DNA of 64,000 nucleotides from Actinobacteria bacterium IMCC26256 (GTDB taxonomy: Bacteria > Actinomycetota > Acidimicrobiia > IMCC26256). Below, piece by piece: positions 14,488 to 27,863 of this stretch; within the stretch, counting starts at the first letter, position 1, and each line of letters begins with the position of its first letter. The notes under the pieces are model-generated. The model ran no database searches, was not told the DNA's origin, and worked only from the letters and a program-made list of their open reading frames with translations. The position numbers and the translations under genes were made by a program. Where the stretch lies: contig CP011489.1 in assembly GCA_001023575.1 (NCBI GenBank), forward strand, positions 2,107,001 through 2,171,000, given 5' to 3'.

Positions 14488-15693
14488 CTACCCGGTGTTT
14501 CTTAGATCGGGCGGTGCTCGCCAAGCCCATGTGCGCTCAGTCCCCGCCTCCGTCTCAATCTTCTCGAGCCTGTATCCGTTATGTGTTTTTTGAAGGTGAT
14601 GACGCTTACAGAGGCGTACAAGGTTCTCGAGGGATGCGGGGCCACCCTCAGCGAAGGGCACGATGTGGTCTATCTCTAGGCCAAGAGTTACGTCACATGT
14701 GGGTACCTGGCAGACGCGGTCGCGCTCCTCAACCGCAGTGCGCAACTTTGCAGGTATTGCTCTACCCATATGTGCAATCGTTCTTATGTCTGTGCCGTCG
14801 AGAATGAGGAGTTTTAAGAATGCTTCACCCAAATACGCTGTCGCAGTCGCCACTGGGATCGGCCCGACGCCTGCGATCTCGCAGACCTCACCATTCTCGG
14901 TACATCCACGCTTGAGTGCATCTATGTCGATACGAATATTCATCACCGCGTTAGGGCGAGTCGCTTTCCCGCCACTTTCGCTCGACTGCTTTGTGGTTGC
15001 TTTCTCGCAGAGTGCCATGAGTGCGTCAGCAGCGTAGGCCTCTGGTCTTTCATGCTCACCACTCTTACGCGCTGACCTAAAGATTTCATCCTGGATCGGT
15101 TTGAGTGCTGCCATTACGAGAGCGCCGTTAGCGACAGTCATGCGCCCTCTTACGTTGAACGAGCCATCGAGATCGGTCCAGGATTTGAAGTAACGACTCT
15201 TGTGTACCTGTCGGTGTCGCTCTGCTTCATCGGTAGCCCCAGCAACTAGACGCGAGGTTGCGTCGCGTAGATCGCGCACGGTTGCGCGTTTCGCGAGGTT
15301 CAAGAGTTGTGTCTCCGTATTAGGCGCAACAATCGCACCGCGTGCTACCTCTACAGCCTGAGCGTTGGAGAGAGTGCCGTTTCTTAAGGCAGCCTGGGTA
15401 ACAGGAAGGTGCTGGAGTTGATTGGCGAGGAGTACTACTGCTTGGGCTTCATACTGAGGACAATCTGTCTCAATAGCGAGCCACTCAGTGATGCTCTTCG
15501 CACCTTCACCCTTCCAGCTATTGGTTCGCTCTACTTGGCCGACAGCAACAGTGCGCAGAGAATCTCCAGCTCGACGAATCTCGTCGGCGATACCAACTAG
15601 CGCAGCGGCATCCTTGCCCGCGACTACATCGATATTGATACGCGAGGAGACCTCTCGTAAGTGGGTGACTGCGCTTTTAAGTTCATCGAACAT
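14488..15693 (-). CDS. DUF222 / 13E12-type protein with C-terminal HNH endonuclease domain, SOS-controlled
   Basis: The 401-residue protein has the actinobacterial DUF222 region (about 1-290) followed by an HNH nuclease domain: paired cysteines in CQVPTC, LEIDHIVPFAEGG, then ENLVRLCKRHH. The nuclease residues look intact. The start is taken as ATG at 15693 rather than an in-frame ATG at 15723: a near-consensus promoter (TTGTAG, 17 nt, TATAAT) ends just before 15693, predicting a leaderless message. A perfect LexA palindrome covers the start codon. Proteins of this family occur in many actinobacterial genomes, some as repeated copies with LexA sites. No mobile-element ends were found around it. 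Confidence 0.9.
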   Translation of the reverse strand: MFDELKSAVTHLREVSSRINIDVVAGKDAAALVGIADEIRRAGDSLRTVAVGQVERTNSWKGEGAKSITEWLAIETDCPQYEAQAVVLLANQLQHLPVTQAALRNGTLSNAQAVEVARGAIVAPNTETQLLNLAKRATVRDLRDATSRLVAGATDEAERHRQVHKSRYFKSWTDLDGSFNVRGRMTVANGALVMAALKPIQDEIFRSARKSGEHERPEAYAADALMALCEKATTKQSSESGGKATRPNAVMNIRIDIDALKRGCTENGEVCEIAGVGPIPVATATAYLGEAFLKLLILDGTDIRTIAHMGRAIPAKLRTAVEERDRVCQVPTCDVTLGLEIDHIVPFAEGGPASLENLVRLCKRHHLQKTHNGYRLEKIETEAGTERTWAWRAPPDLRNTG

Positions 15694-15702
15694 ATGTTCG
15701 AT
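15685..15702 (-). promoter_or_regulatory. Perfect LexA (SOS) box over the start of the HNH gene
   Basis: An 18-bp perfect palindrome, ATCGAACATATGTTCGAT, matches the Gram-positive/actinobacterial SOS box (TCGAAC, 4 nt, GTTCGA) in all 12 defined bases. It overlaps the last bases of the -10 element and the ATG, so LexA binding would block the promoter. Confidence 0.9.
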
Positions 15703-15729
15703 TATAAAACAAGGGTGGGACAACTACAA
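15701..15729 (-). promoter_or_regulatory. Sigma-70-type promoter of the HNH gene, predicted leaderless
   Basis: Minus strand: TTGTAG at 15729-15724, a 17-nt spacer, TATAAT at 15706-15701. The expected transcription start is at about 15694, directly on the ATG at 15693, so the mRNA would lack a leader. Confidence 0.75.
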
Positions 15730-17895: not shown

Positions 17896-19893
17896 TTAAC
17901 CGGTGCGCCTTACCCTGCGCTGCTCAAGGAAGTCCACGAGTACGTAATCACCCAAATTATCTGGTGATGTGAAGAACGCCCTCCCGCGATTTAGACGAGT
18001 CAACTGCTCTACAAAATTACGTAGCCCCCAATCAGCATCGAGCATGAAAGTGTTGATCGTGATACCTGCCTTCGTGCAGCGAGCAGCCTCGCGCAAGGTT
18101 TCCTCAACCGTCACAGGCGACGCAGGGTACTGAAAATATGCCTCGCCATCCTCTATGTGTGCGGTCGGCTCGCCATCTGTCACCATAAGAATCTGCTTCG
18201 TGCCACTCTCGCGAGAGAGTTGCCTTCTAGCGAGCATCAACGCATGCTGCATGTTGGTCCCCCACTCGAAGTCCCAGGACAACTCGGGTAGTAATTCCGG
18301 CTTGATATCTCGAGCTACGCGCCCAAACGCGACAAGCCCGAAATGATCTCGCGGAAACTGTGATGTGATCAAAGCATGCAGCGCCATCGCAACTTTCTTA
18401 GCTGGCAAGAAGTTGTCGCGCATCGGCATTGACATTGAGACATCCAATAAGAGGACAGTCGACGACCGCGTCAGGACCTCTGTGCGCTCTACCTCAAAGT
18501 CTTCGGGGAGCAGGCGAACTGGCGTTCCAGCCCCTGCGCGAAATACGGCGTTGCGAATCGTCTGCTCGACATTCAGGTTGAAGGGGTCACCATATTCGTA
18601 TGGCTTGTGCTCGTAGGCGCGCTCATGACCTGCACCGACTTGCTCGACCTCGTGGCGGCCAGCCTGGTCCTTTAGGAGTTTGCGGTAGAGATCCCCGAGA
18701 GCCTTCTGCCCTAGAGCACGTACCGCACGTGGAGTCAGTTCAAGGCGGCCTTCACGCTGATCTATCAGGCCTGCCTCCTGAAGTATTCGAGTCATCTCGC
18801 GCATCTGCTCTAGCGATCGAGCTGCATCGTCTCCAAGTAACTCTCTGGCCCGATCAAGATCTACCTCGGCTAATTGAGCAGGGGTAGAGGCATTCTGAAG
18901 CATGCTCTCAAGTTGGTCTAGATCACCGAGATTCTGAAGCATCTCAGACATCTGCCCGAGCCCCATTGGTTGATCCCCTTGACCACCCATTGACTGCTGC
19001 CAACCCATATCTGGGAACGCATTCTGAAGATTGCGACCCAGCTCATCCATCTGCCAGCGCAGATCAACATCGTCAAGCAGCGCTTCACTAAGTTGCTGCA
19101 ACTGATCGCGCTGCTCAGGGGTCATGCTGTTGAGCATTTGCTGCATGGCCGCCATCGAACGCGCCATCTGCTCAAGCAACTCATCAAGCGTTGCAGGATT
19201 ACCTGGGAAAAAGTCAGAGTACTTAGCCATGAAGGCATCGAAGTCTGGCTCTTCGCCGCGCCCTCTCGCCTCAAGCATTTGGTTTAGATCAGCGAGCATG
19301 TCCTTCATACGAGCCATCTGTTCTGGAGATACGTTGCTCATGCCTTCAGAGAGTTGGTTGAAGTTGCTCTTGATTAACTCCGAACGAATCTCGTCCATGA
19401 GCTCCTCGAACTTCGCGCGAGCGGCGTCGTCCATGAAGTCGTATTCCTGAAGAGCCTTCACTAGCCCGCCAAGGTCTGGAGGCATCATGTCGAGTTCAAA
19501 GTTTCGCTCAGCGCCTAACTCTTCGACGATCTCTTTGCGTCGTTGATCCTGAGATTCGCGCGCGGCCTCAACTCGTCGCTCGATACCGGCACGTTCCTCA
19601 TTGAGTACTTCACGAAGTCGCTCGGCTATCTCCGCGAATGGTCCCCCAAGATCTTTTGACTCAACCTCATCACGCCTGCGCTCACGCAGTCGCTTCATCA
19701 TCTCGCGCAGACCCATCATCTGCTCGCCGTTGCTATCGCGCATCCCCTGCTGGAGGAGTCGCCTAAGAGCGGCGTTGGGGTCGCCGTGGTACGTGAGGTC
19801 GTCGGCCATCTCTGCAAGGAGAGAATCCGCGTCGAGGTTGAACCCAACCTGAGTCCCGTCCCAGCGTGAATAGTCAAATGCCCTGCGCGTCAT
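17896..19893 (-). CDS. Large VWA-domain protein with long helical N-terminal region (MoxR partner type)
   Basis: Of 665 residues, about 1-410 are charged, Met/Gln/Leu-rich and helical with coiled-coil character, and 475-665 form a von Willebrand A domain. The MIDAS metal site is present: Asp484-x-Ser486-x-Ser488 in LLLDVSMSM, plus TDGEP later. VWA proteins of this kind work with MoxR or ChlI-type AAA ATPases as chaperones that insert metals or assemble complexes. Such an ATPase is encoded at 21597-23006 on the same strand, separated by two plus-strand genes. No signal peptide is present, so it acts in the cytoplasm. The client is unknown. Confidence 0.88.
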   Translation of the reverse strand: MTRRAFDYSRWDGTQVGFNLDADSLLAEMADDLTYHGDPNAALRRLLQQGMRDSNGEQMMGLREMMKRLRERRRDEVESKDLGGPFAEIAERLREVLNEERAGIERRVEAARESQDQRRKEIVEELGAERNFELDMMPPDLGGLVKALQEYDFMDDAARAKFEELMDEIRSELIKSNFNQLSEGMSNVSPEQMARMKDMLADLNQMLEARGRGEEPDFDAFMAKYSDFFPGNPATLDELLEQMARSMAAMQQMLNSMTPEQRDQLQQLSEALLDDVDLRWQMDELGRNLQNAFPDMGWQQSMGGQGDQPMGLGQMSEMLQNLGDLDQLESMLQNASTPAQLAEVDLDRARELLGDDAARSLEQMREMTRILQEAGLIDQREGRLELTPRAVRALGQKALGDLYRKLLKDQAGRHEVEQVGAGHERAYEHKPYEYGDPFNLNVEQTIRNAVFRAGAGTPVRLLPEDFEVERTEVLTRSSTVLLLDVSMSMPMRDNFLPAKKVAMALHALITSQFPRDHFGLVAFGRVARDIKPELLPELSWDFEWGTNMQHALMLARRQLSRESGTKQILMVTDGEPTAHIEDGEAYFQYPASPVTVEETLREAARCTKAGITINTFMLDADWGLRNFVEQLTRLNRGRAFFTSPDNLGDYVLVDFLEQRRVRRTG

Positions 19894-19957: not shown

Positions 19958-20344
19958 ATGACTCAATCCCCTCGAAAGCTGGCGCCAATAGCTCTCCTTC
20001 TTTCGGCTGCTCTCCTTGTAACCGGCTGCTCCGGGTCAAGCAAGAAGAACGTTCTCCCAGATCCCAAAAAGGCTTTCTGCGATAAAGGTAAGGAGTATGA
20101 GGCGCTGATTACCTCGGGAAAGAAGGTAAGCGTCGACGAGCAGCTCGCAATCGTGCGAGAGATCAACGCGAATGCCCCTAAAGACATCGCAGCAGATACA
20201 CAAGTTTTCCTGAGCGCTCTAGAGCGAGTCTCCAATGGAGACAAACGTGTAGTCGACGATGCGCAGGTTCGCGAGGCAATCGTGAATGTAAATCGTCGTT
20301 TTGCACAAGGCTGCGGACTCTTCGATCGCAAGTCCGCTATCTAA
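19958..20344 (+). CDS. Small lipoprotein of unknown function
   Basis: The 128-residue protein has a signal peptide with a hydrophobic stretch (about 9-23) and lipobox LVTGC, so Cys24 should be lipidated. The mature part is helical and charged, with two further cysteines (about 41 and 119) that could form a disulphide. No family was recognised. It is divergent from the VWA gene (64 bp apart) and 8 nt upstream of the GH1-like gene, so it is likely co-transcribed with the latter. Confidence 0.75.
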   Translation: MTQSPRKLAPIALLLSAALLVTGCSGSSKKNVLPDPKKAFCDKGKEYEALITSGKKVSVDEQLAIVREINANAPKDIAADTQVFLSALERVSNGDKRVVDDAQVREAIVNVNRRFAQGCGLFDRKSAI

Positions 20345-20352
20345 GGAACTCA

Positions 20353-21585
20353 TTGCCCCAATTTGAGAGTGGCGAGCCCCAAAAAGGATTCACTAGCGAT
20401 TTCATTTGGGGGACCAACTCGTCATCTACTCAGGTTGAGGGAGCGGCACGACAGAGCGACTGGCTCGATTGGGAGATACAGGGCAACGCTCCTCGTTCGG
20501 GAGAAGGTAACGGTTTCAAGACTCAATACTCTGAGGACTTCTCCCTATACGCCTCCTTTGGATTACTTCAGCACAGACTCTCCATCGACTGGGCTCGAAT
20601 TGAGCCATCTGAAGGTCGCAGAGACGGCGCAGAGATTGAGCATGCGCGTTGGGTTCTCGAGTCAGCACGCGATGCGGGGATCGAACCTTGGGTCTGCCTT
20701 CACCACATCGCTCTACCCGGGTGGTTTACAGAGCTGGGTGAAGGCGGGTTCAGAGACGACAAGACACGCTCCTATTTCTGGGCACGCCATGTTGCGTTCT
20801 GTGCTGAGACCTTCGGCGATCTAGTCGCTGGGTGGCAACCACTCCACCATCCGACTGCATACGCATCTGATGCATTTCTCAACGGAGTCCATCCTCCAGG
20901 CTCAAAGCATCCAGCAAAGTTTGCTGAGACGCTGCGCGGCATGGTCTTTGCGTGGCGCGATGCGTGGCGTGAATTGAGAGGCGGCCCTCCTATAGCGACT
21001 GCCCTGAACCTTGCACCAATTTTCGCGATAGATAACTCTCCGGTAGCAGAGCAACACGCACGCGACGCAGACGCAGTGATCTGGAGGGTCTGGATGCGCG
21101 CTCTGCGAGATGGAGTACTAACCATTCCAGGGATGCCCGAGATCGAGATACCCGAGCTGCGCGACTCCTGCGACATGGTGGGTTTCAGTTACGAGTCTGC
21201 AATCGGAGTGACACGCGAAGGGAAATTCGTTAGTTACCCAAACAATCTGAGGAAGACTTCTTTAGGGATAGCTCCATGGGTAGAAGGGCTATCGCTCGTA
21301 CTCCACAGGCTCGCGGAGGAACTACCCGACCGGCCCCTATTAATCACAGGGCTCGGCATCGGCACCGATGATGACGCATGGCGATGCGACTACCTACGCG
21401 AATGCTTCGCAGCCGTTGAAGAGGCAATCGACGATGGCATCGATATTCGCGGCATCTTCCACCAAACAGGGATTGACCAGTACGAGTGGCTAGGCGGCTA
21501 TGAGACTCCGTATGGATTATTCACGCGAGACAGAGAACCGCGCGCGAGCGCGGAGGTAGTCGCCGAGTACGCAAAGAAGCGGTAA
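20353..21585 (+). CDS. GH1-fold (beta-glucosidase-like) protein lacking both catalytic glutamates; probable pseudoenzyme
   Basis: The 410-residue protein follows the glycoside hydrolase family 1 layout: FIWGTNSSSTQVEGA at the N-terminus, HRLSIDWARIEP, CLHHIALPGWF, GVHPPG, and a C-terminal HQTGIDQYEWLGGY. The acid/base site, normally NEP, reads HHP (165-167), with His166 where Glu belongs. The nucleophile site, normally ITENG, reads ITGLG (331-335), with Gly333 where Glu belongs. Other sugar-pocket residues are kept, so binding without hydrolysis is plausible. The start is TTG at 20353, with AAGGA upstream. No signal peptide is seen. It lies 8 nt after a lipoprotein gene, inside a MoxR-VWA pair. 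Confidence 0.85.
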   Translation: MPQFESGEPQKGFTSDFIWGTNSSSTQVEGAARQSDWLDWEIQGNAPRSGEGNGFKTQYSEDFSLYASFGLLQHRLSIDWARIEPSEGRRDGAEIEHARWVLESARDAGIEPWVCLHHIALPGWFTELGEGGFRDDKTRSYFWARHVAFCAETFGDLVAGWQPLHHPTAYASDAFLNGVHPPGSKHPAKFAETLRGMVFAWRDAWRELRGGPPIATALNLAPIFAIDNSPVAEQHARDADAVIWRVWMRALRDGVLTIPGMPEIEIPELRDSCDMVGFSYESAIGVTREGKFVSYPNNLRKTSLGIAPWVEGLSLVLHRLAEELPDRPLLITGLGIGTDDDAWRCDYLRECFAAVEEAIDDGIDIRGIFHQTGIDQYEWLGGYETPYGLFTRDREPRASAEVVAEYAKKR

Positions 21586-21596
21586 AAACCTATTAA

Positions 21597-23006
21597 TTAA
21601 CGGTTGGAGCCCCGAGATCGATAAGTAGCACGCCCATCTACTGCATCCTTGTTGAGGCGCTTCGAAAGATGAAGTCCCTCAAGCAAGAACTCAATTGCGG
21701 ACGCGACGCTTCCCGGAGTCTCAACCACACCTAAGTCTTCTAGAGTCTCTTTCACGCCTGGCAAATCTGAGATCAGAGCGACGTAGTCTGCCGATGGCAG
21801 TTCATCACCGGTATGCACAACACGACCATCGTCAAACGCCTGCACTAACGCAGTAAGGCGCTCTGGTTTTACATGCGCGCGGAATACCTCGAGGATCGCT
21901 GCTTGAATAATTCGCTCGAGTACTTGACCCTCGCGACCGTCATCGAGGGTCTCGATCTCAATCTTCCCGCTAGTACTAGACACCAGGGCCTCTAGGTCGC
22001 TAACACGCGGAACGGCCTCGGCTTCGTGGGTGTGCAGAGCGCGTCGTAAAGCATTCGCAACGAGGGTCTCATAGTTTGCAATCGAGAGCCTCACGGATAC
22101 TCCGGAGCGCTGGTTGACGTGTGGCGACCTTCGTGCCTGCTGACTAATCTCCGCGATGATCTCGACCATAAATGCTGGAACCGTTACCTCAACGCCCGCA
22201 GCCGAGATGACCTGAGCCTCTTGGGCTATTACATCCATCTCTAACCCAACCTCTAATGGGTAGTGAGTGCGAATCTGAGCCCCAAAGCGGTCTTTAAGGG
22301 GAGTAATGATGCGACCGCGGTTGGTGTAGTCCTCTGGGTTTGCAGATGCGACGAGCATCACATCTACTGGCAGACGAATCTTGTATCCGCGAATCTGCAC
22401 ATCACGCTCTTCAAGGACATTGAGGAGGCCGACCTGAATCCGCTCTGCGAGATCGGGCAACTCGTTAATCGCAAAGATTCCGCGATTTGTGCGCGGCACC
22501 ATTCCGTAGTGAATCGTTAGTTCATCTGAGAGGTAGCGACCCTCAGCAACCTTGATCGGGTCGACCTCACCGATGAGGTCCGCTATCGAAGTATCTGGAG
22601 TAGCGAGTTTCTCCCCGAAGCGGCGGCTGCGATGAACCCATGTAATTGGGGTCTCGTCACCCTGCTCCTCGATGAGGGTCCGGGCGTGAGCACTAATCGG
22701 GTTATAGGGATCATCGTTGATCTCGCTCCCAGCGACAATCGGCATCCACTCGTCAAGGAGTTCAGTCAAGGATCGGATGATGCGCGTCTTGGCCTGGCCG
22801 CGCTCGCCGAGCAGGATCACGTCGTGCCCAGCCAGTAGGGCGTTCTCTAATTGAGGAAGAACTGTGTCTTCATACCCAAGCACCCCATCGACAAGTGGTC
22901 GGCCGGCGATGATTCGCTCAATGGCATTGGCGCGCACTTCATCCTTGACCGGACGGGAGACCCAGCCGCTTGCTTTGAGTTCGCCGAGTGTTGTGGGGCG
23001 GGTCAT
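21597..23006 (-). CDS. MoxR/ChlI-type AAA+ ATPase
   Basis: The 469-residue ATPase has Walker A GERGQAKT (about 67-74) and a Walker B-like GIFAINELPDL with the ChlI-type layout, including SANPEDYTNRGRIITPLKDRFG, where the arginine and sensor residues lie. It resembles magnesium-chelatase subunit I-like MoxR proteins that pair with VWA proteins. AAAGGAG precedes the ATG at 23006. The likely VWA partner is at 17896-19893. The absence of chelatase H/D genes argues against chlorophyll synthesis and for a general assembly chaperone. It is divergent from sdhC. Confidence 0.9.
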   Translation of the reverse strand: MTRPTTLGELKASGWVSRPVKDEVRANAIERIIAGRPLVDGVLGYEDTVLPQLENALLAGHDVILLGERGQAKTRIIRSLTELLDEWMPIVAGSEINDDPYNPISAHARTLIEEQGDETPITWVHRSRRFGEKLATPDTSIADLIGEVDPIKVAEGRYLSDELTIHYGMVPRTNRGIFAINELPDLAERIQVGLLNVLEERDVQIRGYKIRLPVDVMLVASANPEDYTNRGRIITPLKDRFGAQIRTHYPLEVGLEMDVIAQEAQVISAAGVEVTVPAFMVEIIAEISQQARRSPHVNQRSGVSVRLSIANYETLVANALRRALHTHEAEAVPRVSDLEALVSSTSGKIEIETLDDGREGQVLERIIQAAILEVFRAHVKPERLTALVQAFDDGRVVHTGDELPSADYVALISDLPGVKETLEDLGVVETPGSVASAIEFLLEGLHLSKRLNKDAVDGRATYRSRGSNR

Positions 23007-23111: not shown

Positions 23112-23171
23112 TGCGCCCTCTACTACCGTTCACACTGGAACTTGTTGGTCACCGCGAGAGGAATACAGGCC

Positions 23172-23921
23172 ATGACGAAGGTTGAGAATGCGCAGCGGTA
23201 CGTAGGCGCTCCGCAACCAGCACCTGCGAAGAAGGACGGACCCTTCTTTGTGATGTTCTGGCGTTCAGCGGTGGGCAAGAAGTGGATCATGGCCGTCACC
23301 GGCATCATGCTCATCGGATTTGTGTTTGCTCACATGCTTGGGAACCTCAAGATCTTTCTTAGCGCTGACGCTATCGATCACTACGCCGAGTGGCTCCGAA
23401 CCATTGGCTACCCGATACTCCCTAAGACTGGTGTTCTTTGGATTCTGCGCGCCGGTCTTTTAGGCGCCGTCGTACTCCACATCTGGGCAGCGGCATCGCT
23501 AACCAGAATGAATCGTGCAGCCCGACCCAACGGCTACAAGTCGCCGCGTGAGTATGTAGCCGCAGATTTTGCGGCCCGCACGATGCGCTGGACCGGCATC
23601 ATCCTCACACTCTTCATCATCTTCCATCTTCTCGACCTCACTTGGGGACAGACTGGGGTGAAGGATTTTAAGAGCGGGGATGTCTACAACAACATCGTCA
23701 ACTCCTTCACACGAGTCCCTGTTGCGATCGCGTACATCGTCGCGAACATCGCTATAGGAATTCACCTCTACCACGGTGCTTGGTCAATGTTCCAGAGCCT
23801 CGGGATCAACAGCCCGAGATTCAATCCTTGGCGCAGGGGCTTTGCTATTGGGCTCGCATCAATCATCGCCATCGGCAATATCAGCATTCCTCTCCTAGTA
23901 GTAACAAAGGTCGTCAAGTGA
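23172..23921 (+). CDS. sdhC: Succinate dehydrogenase cytochrome b subunit
   Basis: This is the membrane anchor of respiratory complex II, carrying haem b and passing electrons to quinone. Its 249 residues hold five predicted membrane helices with histidines spaced as haem ligands (for example in [30 protein letters not shown]), the pattern of single-polypeptide b558-type anchors. The start is ATG at 23172, with AGAGGA upstream; the longer in-frame start at 23142 has no such site. The sdhA GTG overlaps its stop by 4 nt. No separate sdhD is present, consistent with this type. Confidence 0.95.
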
Positions 23922-25843
23922 GCAACATCAACCTCGATGCAAAGATCCCCGCTGGGGCCCTAGAGGACAAGTGGGATAACCACAAGTTCTCAGTGAAGCT
24001 TGTTAACCCTGCAAACCGACGCAAGTTTCGCGTTGTTATTGTCGGCTCTGGCCTCGCAGGAGCATCTGCGGCAGCAACTCTCGGTGAGCTTGGCTACCAC
24101 GTTCAACTCCTTACATTCCACGACTCCCCGCGACGCGCTCACTCAATCGCAGCACAGGGCGGAATCAACGCAGCCAAGAACTACCCAAATGATGGAGACA
24201 GCGTAAAGCGCCTCTTCTACGACACGATCAAGGGTGGCGACTTCCGCGCACGCGAGGCAAACGTTCATCGCTTGGCACAGGTGAGCGTAAACATCATTGA
24301 CCAGTGCGTCTCTCAAGGTGTTCCGTTTGCACGTGAGTACGCAGGGTTGCTCGATAACCGATCATTCGGTGGAGCGCAGGTTTCACGCACCTTCTACGCT
24401 CGTGGCCAGACAGGGCAGCAGCTTCTTCTAGGCGCATACCAAGCACTTGCTCGCCAGGTGCACCTCGGAAATGTGGAGCTCCACAACCGCACCGAGATGC
24501 TCGACATGGTGATGAAGGATGGACGAGCAGTTGGCGTAGTGGCTCGAGACCTAATCACCGGAGCAATTCACTCGTACTCAGGGCACGCAGTCGTACTTGC
24601 TACTGGTGGATACGGAAACGTCTTCTACCTCTCCACTAACGCAATGGCTAGCAACGTCACTGCAGCATGGCGCGCACACAAGCGCGGTGCGCTAATGGCT
24701 AATCCTTGCTTCACGCAGATTCACCCCACCTGCATCCCTGCCTCAGATGAGTTCCAATCCAAGTTGACCCTCATGAGCGAGTCGCTTCGAAACGACGGTC
24801 GCATCTGGGTACCCCAGAATGCAGAAGACACTCGATCCCCTGAGCAGATCCCAGACTCCGAGCGCGATTACTTCCTCGAGCGTATGTACCCGTCCTTCGG
24901 GAACCTTGCGCCGCGAGATATCGCTTCGCGGGCATCAAAGCGCCAGGTCGATGTTGGTAAGGGTGTTGGGCCAATCAAGAACGGCGTCTACCTCGACTTC
25001 GATGAGGCAATCAATCGTCTCGGCGCACCTGTGATTGAGGAGCGCTACGGCAACCTTCTCCAGATGTACGAGCGCATCACCGGCGAAGACCCATACAAGA
25101 TGCCCATGCGCATCTACCCAGCAGTGCACTACACAATGGGTGGACTCTGGGTTGACTACAACCTAATGAGCAACGTCGAGGGCTTATACGTACTCGGCGA
25201 GGCGAACTTCTCTGATCACGGAGCCAACCGACTCGGTGCGAGCGCTCTCATGCAGGGGCTCTCCGATGGCTACTTCGTGCTCCCTGCCACCATCACTGAT
25301 TATCTTGCTCCTCAGCTTGGAGAGGCCCCCATATCTACTGAGGACCCCATCTTCAAGCAGGCTGAGGCCGCTGTGCGCGACCGCACCAACCAAATGGTCG
25401 CTATCAAGGGCACTCACTCCCCCGATCACTTCCACCGCGAGCTCGGCAAGATCATTTGGGAGCACTGCGGCATGGAGCGCTCGGCGGAGAGCCTCGATAA
25501 GGCCCTCGCTGAGATCCCCGTACTGCGCGAGCAGTTCTGGAACGACGTGCGCGTGCTCGGTGATACTGAGTCATTCAACCAATCGGTTGAGAAGGCTGGG
25601 CGTGTCGCCGACTTCCTTGAGTTTGGTGAGGAGTTAGTGCTCGACGCAAGGCGCCGCGAGGAGTCGTGCGGTGGCCACTTCCGAGTTGAGTACCAGACCG
25701 AGGATGGCGAGGCTCTCCGCAACGACGATGATTTTGCTCATGTCTCCGCTTGGGAGTGGGAGGGCGAGGGCAACGAGCCGACGCTTCACCGCGAGCCGCT
25801 CGTCTATGAGAACGTTCACCTTGCAACTAGGTCCTACAAGTAG
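23918..25843 (+). CDS. sdhA: Succinate dehydrogenase flavoprotein subunit
   Basis: This is the catalytic FAD subunit of complex II, oxidising succinate to fumarate. Its 641 residues carry the dinucleotide motif [14 protein letters not shown] near the N-terminus, [12 protein letters not shown] around the covalent FAD histidine, and the substrate/catalytic segments HPTCIP and HYTMGG. The start is GTG at 23918, overlapping the sdhC stop, with AAAGG upstream; an in-frame upstream extension to 23780 overlaps sdhC and is not used. The next gene, sdhB, follows at 20 nt. Confidence 0.95.
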
Positions 25844-25863
25844 TCGATAGGAGGACGAGGACT

Positions 25864-26628
25864 TTGAAACTCACACTAAAGATCTGGCGTCAAGATGGCC
25901 CCACGGCAGAGGGTCGTTTCGAGACGTATGACATGCCTGCGGTTGTACCCGACATGTCATTCCTAGAGATGATTGACGTCCTAAATGAGAGGCTCATCTC
26001 GGAAGAGTCAGAGCCCATTGCCTTCGACCACGACTGCCGTGAGGGAATCTGTGGCTCATGCTCGATGATGATCAACGGTATTCCGCACGGACCTGAGCGC
26101 GGCACCGCAACTTGTCAGCTCCATATGCGCAAGTTCAAAGACGGTGAGCACATCACGGTCGAGCCATGGCGCGCGCGCTCCTTCCCGATTATCAAAGACC
26201 TTGCCGTAGACCGCAGCCCACTAGACCGCATCATCGAGGCCGGGGGTTACATCTCTGCTCCAACCGGCGCGGCACGAGATGCCAACGAGATATTGATCCC
26301 CAAAGAAGCAGCAGACGCCGCTATGGACGCTGCGGCCTGCATCGGGTGTGGTGCTTGCGTAGCGGCCTGCCCTAACGGAGCCGCCCAGCTCTTTACTGCA
26401 GCAAAATACGGCCACTTAAGCCTTCTCCCACAGGGGCAGCCAGAGCGTTGGACCCGTGCGATTGGGATGGTCGATGAGATGGAGCGTTGGTTTGGGTCCT
26501 GCACAAACTTCGGTGAGTGCGAGACTGCCTGCCCCAAAGAAATCTCGATCGATTTCATTGCACTCCTCAACCGCGACTACATCAAGGCCCAGTTCAAGAA
26601 TCGCCGCCTCTCCGGGCAGAAGTCTTAA
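25864..26628 (+). CDS. sdhB: Succinate dehydrogenase iron-sulphur subunit
   Basis: This is the electron-transfer subunit of complex II. Its 254 residues carry a [2Fe-2S] domain with CREGICGSCSM at about 57-67 and a C-terminal ferredoxin-like domain with CIGCGACVAACP and CTNFGECETACP, which ligate the other two clusters. The start is TTG at 25864, supported by an AGGAGG-rich upstream stretch. It is last in sdhCAB and is followed by two hairpins, the second a good intrinsic terminator. Confidence 0.95.
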   Translation: MKLTLKIWRQDGPTAEGRFETYDMPAVVPDMSFLEMIDVLNERLISEESEPIAFDHDCREGICGSCSMMINGIPHGPERGTATCQLHMRKFKDGEHITVEPWRARSFPIIKDLAVDRSPLDRIIEAGGYISAPTGAARDANEILIPKEAADAAMDAAACIGCGACVAACPNGAAQLFTAAKYGHLSLLPQGQPERWTRAIGMVDEMERWFGSCTNFGECETACPKEISIDFIALLNRDYIKAQFKNRRLSGQKS

Positions 26629-26726: not shown

Positions 26727-27863
26727 ATGACTGCCGAGATTGGTACCGCTATCGGAGACACCATTGATGGTGCTGCAGTTGAGCGACTACTCGCACGAGC
26801 ACGCCGCGATATAGACGAAGGTCTTCTGCCGTCCGCGCAGCTCGCTCTTGCGATCAACGGCGAGATAGCCGTTGAGGAGACATTCGGTGCTGCAACCCCC
26901 GAGTCGCGTTACTGCGTCTTCTCATCTACCAAGGCATTCATCGCAAGCTGCTGCTGGATTCTGATTCAAGAAGGCAAACTTGATGTCAGCAAGAGAGTCG
27001 TCGATTACATACCTGAGTTCGGGACCAACGGCAAAGAGGTAGTTACTGTCGAGCAAGTAATGCTGCACCAAAGCGGGTTCCCCTCTGCCCCACTTGGGCC
27101 ACCGGATTGGGAGACCAAGGCGGGGCGCCTTGAAGCTTTTGGTAAATGGCGCCTCCAATGGGAACCAGGAACCATCTCCGAGTACCACCCATCGAGCGCG
27201 CACTGGGTACTCGCCGAACTCATCGAGAGACTGAGCGGAGAAGACTTCCGCGATTTTCTTGAGCAGCGTGTTACCTCGCCGCTTGGGATCCCACGCGTCC
27301 TTGGAGTGACCGATGATGCTCCTGTCATGGTGCCGGTCCCATGTGGCGAGCCCGCTACTGCGGATGAACTGGAGGCTGTGCTCGGAATTCGTGAACTCCC
27401 CGTTACCGAAGTGACCACGAGTGCAGTTGCATACCTGAGTCGATATGAGGCGCGCGCTGTTGGCCTTCCAGGCGGCGGAGGAGTCATGCGGGCACGAGAC
27501 CTTGCGCTCTTCTACCAAGGCCTGCTCCACAACTCTGCTGGCATCTGGGACCCCGAGGTACTTAGCGACGGAACAGGTCGTGTGCGCAGCATGCTGCCGG
27601 ATGCTTGGACAGGCGTTCCAGCGTCTCGCACTCTCGGGCTAGTAACTGCAGGTAGCGATGGCCTCGGCTCGATGCGCGGATTTGGGAAGACAACCTCCGC
27701 ACGAGCATTTGGGCATAATGGAGCATTCGGGCAGATCTCTTGGGCTGATCCTGAGACTGGGATCTCGTTTGCTTATGCCACGGATGGATTAGACGAGCAC
27801 ATACTGCGCCAGGGTCGCAGGGGGATTGCGCTTAGCAGCCTTGCAAATGAATGCGCTAAGTAG
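26727..27863 (+). CDS. Serine beta-lactamase-fold hydrolase (EstB / class C-like)
   Basis: The 378-residue cytoplasmic protein belongs to the beta-lactamase/penicillin-binding fold family. The SxxK motif is FSSTK with Ser66 and Lys69. The second motif is Tyr153-His-Pro in the segment EYHPSSAHW, and the third is GHNG near the C-terminus. No signal peptide is present, so it is more likely an esterase or amide hydrolase than a secreted lactamase. A G-rich ribosome site precedes the ATG. It stands alone between the sdh terminator and pafB. Confidence 0.88.
   Translation: MTAEIGTAIGDTIDGAAVERLLARARRDIDEGLLPSAQLALAINGEIAVEETFGAATPESRYCVFSSTKAFIASCCWILIQEGKLDVSKRVVDYIPEFGTNGKEVVTVEQVMLHQSGFPSAPLGPPDWETKAGRLEAFGKWRLQWEPGTISEYHPSSAHWVLAELIERLSGEDFRDFLEQRVTSPLGIPRVLGVTDDAPVMVPVPCGEPATADELEAVLGIRELPVTEVTTSAVAYLSRYEARAVGLPGGGGVMRARDLALFYQGLLHNSAGIWDPEVLSDGTGRVRSMLPDAWTGVPASRTLGLVTAGSDGLGSMRGFGKTTSARAFGHNGAFGQISWADPETGISFAYATDGLDEHILRQGRRGIALSSLANECAK

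Follow-up and report, generated by a model that had tools for sequence, protein, structure and literature searches.

A GH1-fold protein predicted to be catalytically dead is retained beside MoxR and VWA genes across a bacterial class

The window, by which we mean the whole 64,000-nucleotide stretch of the Actinobacteria bacterium IMCC26256 genome analysed here, encodes a GH1-fold protein that lacks both catalytic glutamates. The loss is common to the genus, the gene is under purifying selection, and intact and dead orthologues occupy the same place, between a VWA gene and a MoxR-type AAA+ gene, in related bacteria. We tentatively read the protein as a pseudoenzyme of GH1 descent that is retained for its binding, most likely as an accessory of the MoxR-VWA machine.

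Results

The window protein has a GH1 fold and an altered active site

The window lies in a single-contig genome of 2.46 Mb. Its GH1 gene runs uninterrupted from a TTG start at 20353 to a stop codon at 21583-21585 (Table 1), and is preceded by an AAGGA stretch that resembles a ribosome site and overlaps the stop of the lipoprotein gene. The Pfam model PF00232 (Glyco_hydro_1) matches residues 11-397 of the product (E 3.5e-39; 134.9 bits, cut-off 22.6), and the NCBIfam beta-glucosidase model TIGR03356 gives 146.9 bits, far under its cut-off of 478.5. The top PDB matches found by Foldseek for an AF2 model made from six input sequences (pTM 0.78, mean pLDDT 71.6) were all GH1 beta-glycosidases, with a TM-score of about 0.7; in profile and in fold, the protein matches GH1 over its full length. 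Since confidence was below 50 in pocket loops 167-185 and 374-383 of the model, no atomic conclusions were drawn from it. The protein has no signal peptide and is therefore probably cytosolic.

Table 1. Features of the GH1 locus, in window coordinates
Feature	Position	Strand	Length	Basis and remarks
VWA-domain protein	17896..19893	-	665 aa	VWA_2 E 4e-8, DVSMS MIDAS-like motif; divergent, class-wide neighbour
Lipoprotein, lipobox LLVTGC	19958..20344	+	128 aa	8 bp before GH1; beside GH1 in f1, f9, f13
GH1-fold protein, predicted dead by sequence (H166, G333; also E281, Q371)	20353..21585	+	410 aa	PF00232, residue mapping, AF2
Former NEP acid/base motif, now His165-His166-Pro167	20845..20853	+		Sequence and alignment
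Former ITENG nucleophile motif, now ITGLG with Gly333	21343..21357	+		Sequence and alignment
MoxR/ChlI-type AAA+ ATPase	21597..23006	-	469 aa	AAA_5 E 4e-8, weak bpMoxR; convergent, class-wide neighbour
Succinate dehydrogenase/fumarate reductase genes SdhC, SdhA, SdhB	23142..26628	+		By similarity; usually past AAA+ in relatives also

To map residues, we aligned the protein with about 60 relatives and with the Pyrococcus horikoshii beta-glycosidase 1VFF. His166 fell at the acid/base glutamate and Gly333 at the nucleophile, confirming what a preliminary description of this gene had read from the motifs HHP and ITGLG. That description had also held the rest of the fold and sugar-pocket residues to be kept, naming Gln27, the His of HHIALPGW and the QYEW segment. 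Q27, H118, E378 and W379 are indeed retained, and the alignment shows further pocket changes that the description had not mentioned: Phe/Trp has become Ile119, Tyr has become Glu281, Trp has become Gln371 and the adjacent Asn has become Gln376. We take the kept positions to be Q20, H121, E405 and W406 of Thermotoga BglA, in agreement with the alignment to 1VFF. BglA W122, N165, Y295 and W398 correspond to Ile119 (Phe in intact relatives), His165, Glu281 and Gln371, and N293 to Ser279, where intact relatives likewise have Ser.

These changes are concentrated in the pocket. Among 126 sites that are invariant in intact orthologues, 11 of them in the pocket and 115 elsewhere, the window protein is altered at 6 of the former and 7 of the latter (Fisher p=1.2e-4), and most other lineages display a similar pocket-focused change. 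With no acid/base glutamate, no nucleophile glutamate and no intact -1 subsite, the window protein has none of these three sequence marks of an active retaining GH1 enzyme, and its sequence supports well the prediction that it is catalytically dead. The VTGNG motif of SGR_2426 in structure 9U98 was dismissed as a natural parallel because E318G is an engineered mutation.

The loss is common to the genus and the gene is under purifying selection

Three congeners (G001, G002 and G003; G denotes a genome, f a family-level group and L a locus) carry the gene, and loss of catalytic Glu is common to them. G001 has His-Gln-Pro (Q166) with G333; G002, whose protein is 66% identical to that of the window, has His-Glu-Pro (E166) with A333; and G003 has His-His-Pro (H166) in a gene cut at the contig end, its 3' end being absent. 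The nucleophile is replaced by Gly or Ala in every genus copy readable there, residue 166 being His, Gln or Glu. Because four genomes of the genus display related changes, a sequencing or assembly error is ruled out. In public records the congeners are MAGs whose labels read Actinomycetota and, apparently in error, Bifidobacterium breve. Contig CAMDSG010000083.1 (L098), titled as the latter, bears this lineage's locus at 93-99% identity and appears to be mislabelled.

Among the window, G001 and G003 copies, dN/dS (Nei-Gojobori) was 0.03-0.11 at synonymous differences of 0.26-0.45 per site, which indicates purifying selection on the protein and does not favour an ordinary pseudogene. The ratio was 0.06-0.19 in other dead pairs, compared with 0.05-0.11 in intact pairs. 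The gene thus combines a shared catalytic loss with purifying selection, the combination expected of a pseudoenzyme. The preliminary description had seen an open, full-length frame and argued for a pseudoenzyme, not a decayed gene, proposing that relatives be searched for a shared loss of the glutamates. That comparison bore it out, in the related losses across the genus, the full-length frames and the low dN/dS. A paralogue elsewhere on the chromosome (G000:C1:1647210-1648385), 47% identical, keeps both Glu and the entire pocket.

The GH1 gene sits at a conserved MoxR-VWA locus

For intact and dead copies alike the gene order is VWA(-), in some lineages the lipoprotein, GH1(+), AAA+(-) and usually Sdh, and the GH1 gene is flanked by the VWA and MoxR-type AAA+ genes in 15 family-level groups across the class. 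Aquihabitans, a named organism of the Acidimicrobiia, has the same locus, and we infer from this that the class is Acidimicrobiia. Beyond it, two extra matches in the phylum were intact GH1s that are not at such a locus.

The preliminary description, which did not connect these constant neighbours with the gene, had proposed an operon of GH1 with the lipoprotein. Such an operon suits the window genus as well as f9/f13. Yet the lipoprotein gene is conserved at the VWA-AAA+ locus in several families of the order, including places that have no GH1 (f5, f9, f12, f15, f16), and the majority of GH1 copies have no lipoprotein next to them, so it is unlikely to be the main partner. The lipoprotein matched no family in Pfam or NCBIfam and could be another uncharacterised component of the locus. 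GH1, VWA and AAA+ do not form one operon, since GH1 lies on the strand opposite the other two. Nor is their co-occurrence obligate: GH1 is missing at about 27 of the 88 VWA loci examined and is therefore dispensable to the MoxR-VWA pair.

Two further genes lie near the locus. An HNH-endonuclease (DUF222-like) protein is encoded at window 14488-15723, and a close copy of it (L007 192-1412) stands beside the intact GH1 paralogue, about 480 kb off, which suggests that this gene is part of a repeated or mobile module. After sdhB comes a serine beta-lactamase-like hydrolase (window 26727-27863); in G050 and G056 (f17), distant homologues of it are found in the interval from AAA+ to sdh. PADLOC returned no convincing match, and a reading as an anti-phage system was discarded on that ground.

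Intact and dead copies occur side by side in the class

At this locus, 23 sampled copies have both Glu and 41 are without one or both, the dead copies spanning 11 family-level groups. Both Glu are present in f9, f13, f17, f39 and parts of f45 and f28; one or both are lost in f1, f18, part of f28, f34, f42, f44, f51 and f59, as well as in G262 (f45) and G222 (f49). A profile search also brought in strongly diverged dead copies that occupy this position in f20 and f49. In Aquihabitans sp. G128 (L193, NZ_CP077604.1) a dead GH1 adjoins the VWA gene and is split over two frames, either by a real break or by a sequencing error. Away from the locus, all 25 related GH1s checked (6 of a control set and 19 others) keep both Glu and the pocket.

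Some dead copies have lost only one of the two residues. Glu166 alone remains in G002, G057, G262, three f49 copies and Aquihabitans, and Glu333 alone in G335. The G002, G057, G262 and f49 copies hint at a strict order in which the nucleophile goes first, an order contradicted by G335, where Glu333 accompanies Asp166. An acid/base of the Glu166 type without a nucleophile is the arrangement of engineered glycosynthases, and such copies lend something to the idea of a re-tooled enzyme, in which the new pocket charges (E281, H165 and H166 in the window protein) would serve a different reaction, such as transfer from an activated donor, for which no classical nucleophile is needed. Pocket substitutions are, moreover, frequently charged (D/E/R at 281, D/E at 371, and D at 166 in several lineages). 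However, the charges vary even within the genus, from E281/Q371 in the window and G001 to T281/R371 in G002, residue 166 varies with them, and the dead copies have no catalytic pair in common. We regard such re-tooling as improbable.

Most dead copies are full-length and open, and the gene persists across family-level divergence after the chemistry was lost. Both facts, together with the genus dN/dS and the synonymous differences at which it was obtained, weigh against a leftover beta-glycosidase decaying slowly at a stable locus, on its way out and under selection that is residual or for folding only. Such a course would agree with the longer gene-tree branches of dead than of intact copies, with the many VWA loci where GH1 is missing, and with the worn state of some copies: several in f20 are shortened to about 300 aa, which like the split Aquihabitans frame fits slow loss in places. 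As an account of the gene as a whole, slow decay seems unlikely to us. The f20 loci (L136-L140, L168) have GH1-like ORFs with a conserved WPRWVE / AWRDAWRILRGGPPVAT core, which ordinary annotation has difficulty assigning to GH1.

What the worn copies keep is informative. Orthologues at the locus in f28, f44, f20 and f49 have lost most sugar-contact residues and the gene is still present. Residues W80, P85, W113, P122, W124, F125, W143, R145, V147, G160, W161, P163, P167, A200, A204, R206, L208, P213, G254 and D274 are shared by intact and dead copies, among them a large part of f20/f49, and A171, R206, W247 and P259 are marks of the locus family, not of GH1 at large. Because the most worn f20/f49 copies drop the sugar contacts and keep non-pocket residues, the pattern speaks for a role in binding or structure that lies outside the sugar site.

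The same pattern bears on whether the dead barrel is a sugar sensor, which would bind a glycoside in its -1 subsite and signal through the lipoprotein or MoxR-VWA. Gln27, His118, Glu378 and Trp379 of the window protein correspond to sugar-contact residues, the subsite -1 contacts being known in SGR_2426 (PMC12369401), and in f1, f9 and f13 the lipoprotein and GH1 genes form a close, conserved pair. Against this, the four worn families lack most of the contacts, the Trp platform is Gln371 in the window protein and Arg in G002, and the GH1 protein is probably cytosolic, whereas the lipoprotein is exported. The preliminary description had suggested a sugar-binding or regulatory protein; the window protein might indeed hold a sugar, but sugar binding is unlikely as the general reason for retention, since the contacts went in same-locus orthologues and the gene stayed. 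With sister lineages having lost these residues too, sugar sensing appears rather unlikely, and less likely than a MoxR-VWA accessory role.

The catalytic residues were probably lost more than once at the locus

We built a GH1 gene tree without the active-site columns and, as a proxy for descent, a VWA+AAA tree of the same loci. In the GH1 tree the window genus is sister to an intact f9/f13/f17 clade (99/99), and the remaining dead copies fall together in another group with long branches (98/90, a support that such branches may inflate), giving 2 changes of catalytic state. The VWA+AAA tree gives 5 to 6 or more. A single ancient loss, with all dead copies in one clade, was 32 log units worse and only marginally disfavoured by the AU test (p 0.053, just short of rejection at 5%); it also conflicts with the 99/99 support that places the window genus beside intact copies. 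On the best-supported trees the window genus would have lost catalysis separately, and the total number of losses probably lies between 2 and at least 6. Both f28 and f45 mix intact with dead copies. Monophyly of f28 was not rejected (p 0.222), so loss may have occurred in place there; transfer of dead copies into f28 is also possible.

Discussion

We propose that a beta-glycosidase TIM barrel which lost both catalytic Glu and much of its -1 subsite is retained by purifying selection for binding. Its working part would be the non-catalytic barrel, with W113, P122-W124, W143-R145-V147, G160-W161, P163, A200-R206-L208 and P213. To judge from gene position, it is most likely an accessory or adaptor that docks on the MoxR-VWA pair in the cytosol, and that pair may in turn have the adjacent succinate dehydrogenase/fumarate reductase as its target; contact with the pair and with such a target is a prediction. 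Catalysis would be dispensable for docking, so that the pocket would have decayed repeatedly. The loci without GH1, its opposite strand and the shortened or split copies count against an adaptor, and hitch-hiking at a stable locus can also conserve a neighbourhood.

More speculatively, a MoxR-VWA chaperone system may have GH1 as a third component, class-wide and so far undescribed: a metabolic enzyme taken on as a structural adaptor, whose active site was then discarded independently at least six times. If so, the locus would be a natural replicate experiment in pseudoenzyme birth. Pseudoenzymes usually come to light singly, when the loss is already old. In the present case related bacteria carry intact and dead orthologues at one locus, which shows directly which sites were freed and which surface was retained, and allows the two versions to be exchanged in experiments. 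The finding points to a possible unknown subunit of MoxR-VWA machines beside succinate dehydrogenase, and it is a warning that GH1 annotations at a VWA-AAA+ locus should not be counted as glycosidases.

In Mycobacterium, a possible parallel is Rv0958 and Rv0959, adjacent Mg-chelatase-like AAA+ and VWA genes similar in size to the window pair, and no GH1 gene is known beside them. RavA-ViaA and NorQ-NorD likewise consist of AAA+ plus VWA genes. In E. coli the VWA domain of ViaA binds the fumarate reductase subunit FrdA (PMC10585395) and RavA binds the metabolic enzyme LdcI (PMC6987120); sdhCAB adjoins the window pair. The open-access literature searched describes no GH1-fold component of MoxR/VWA systems, and in it we found no paper on a bacterial GH1 pseudoenzyme tied to MoxR-VWA genes.

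With GH1 beta-glucosidases (PF00232, TIGR03356; 1VFF, SGR_2426/8KAP) the window protein shares the full-length fold and about a quarter of its residues with solved members, and intact orthologues are present at the window-type locus; it differs in having neither catalytic Glu, nor the Trp platform, nor the Tyr. GH1 pseudoenzymes as such are already known: the KL domains of alpha- and beta-Klotho have a GH1 fold, lack key catalytic Glu and function through binding (PMC8204227). The Klothos, however, are animal membrane proteins with tandem domains, whereas the window protein is a single, probably cytosolic bacterial domain, tied to MoxR-VWA genes and with losses that can be traced against intact syntenic orthologues.
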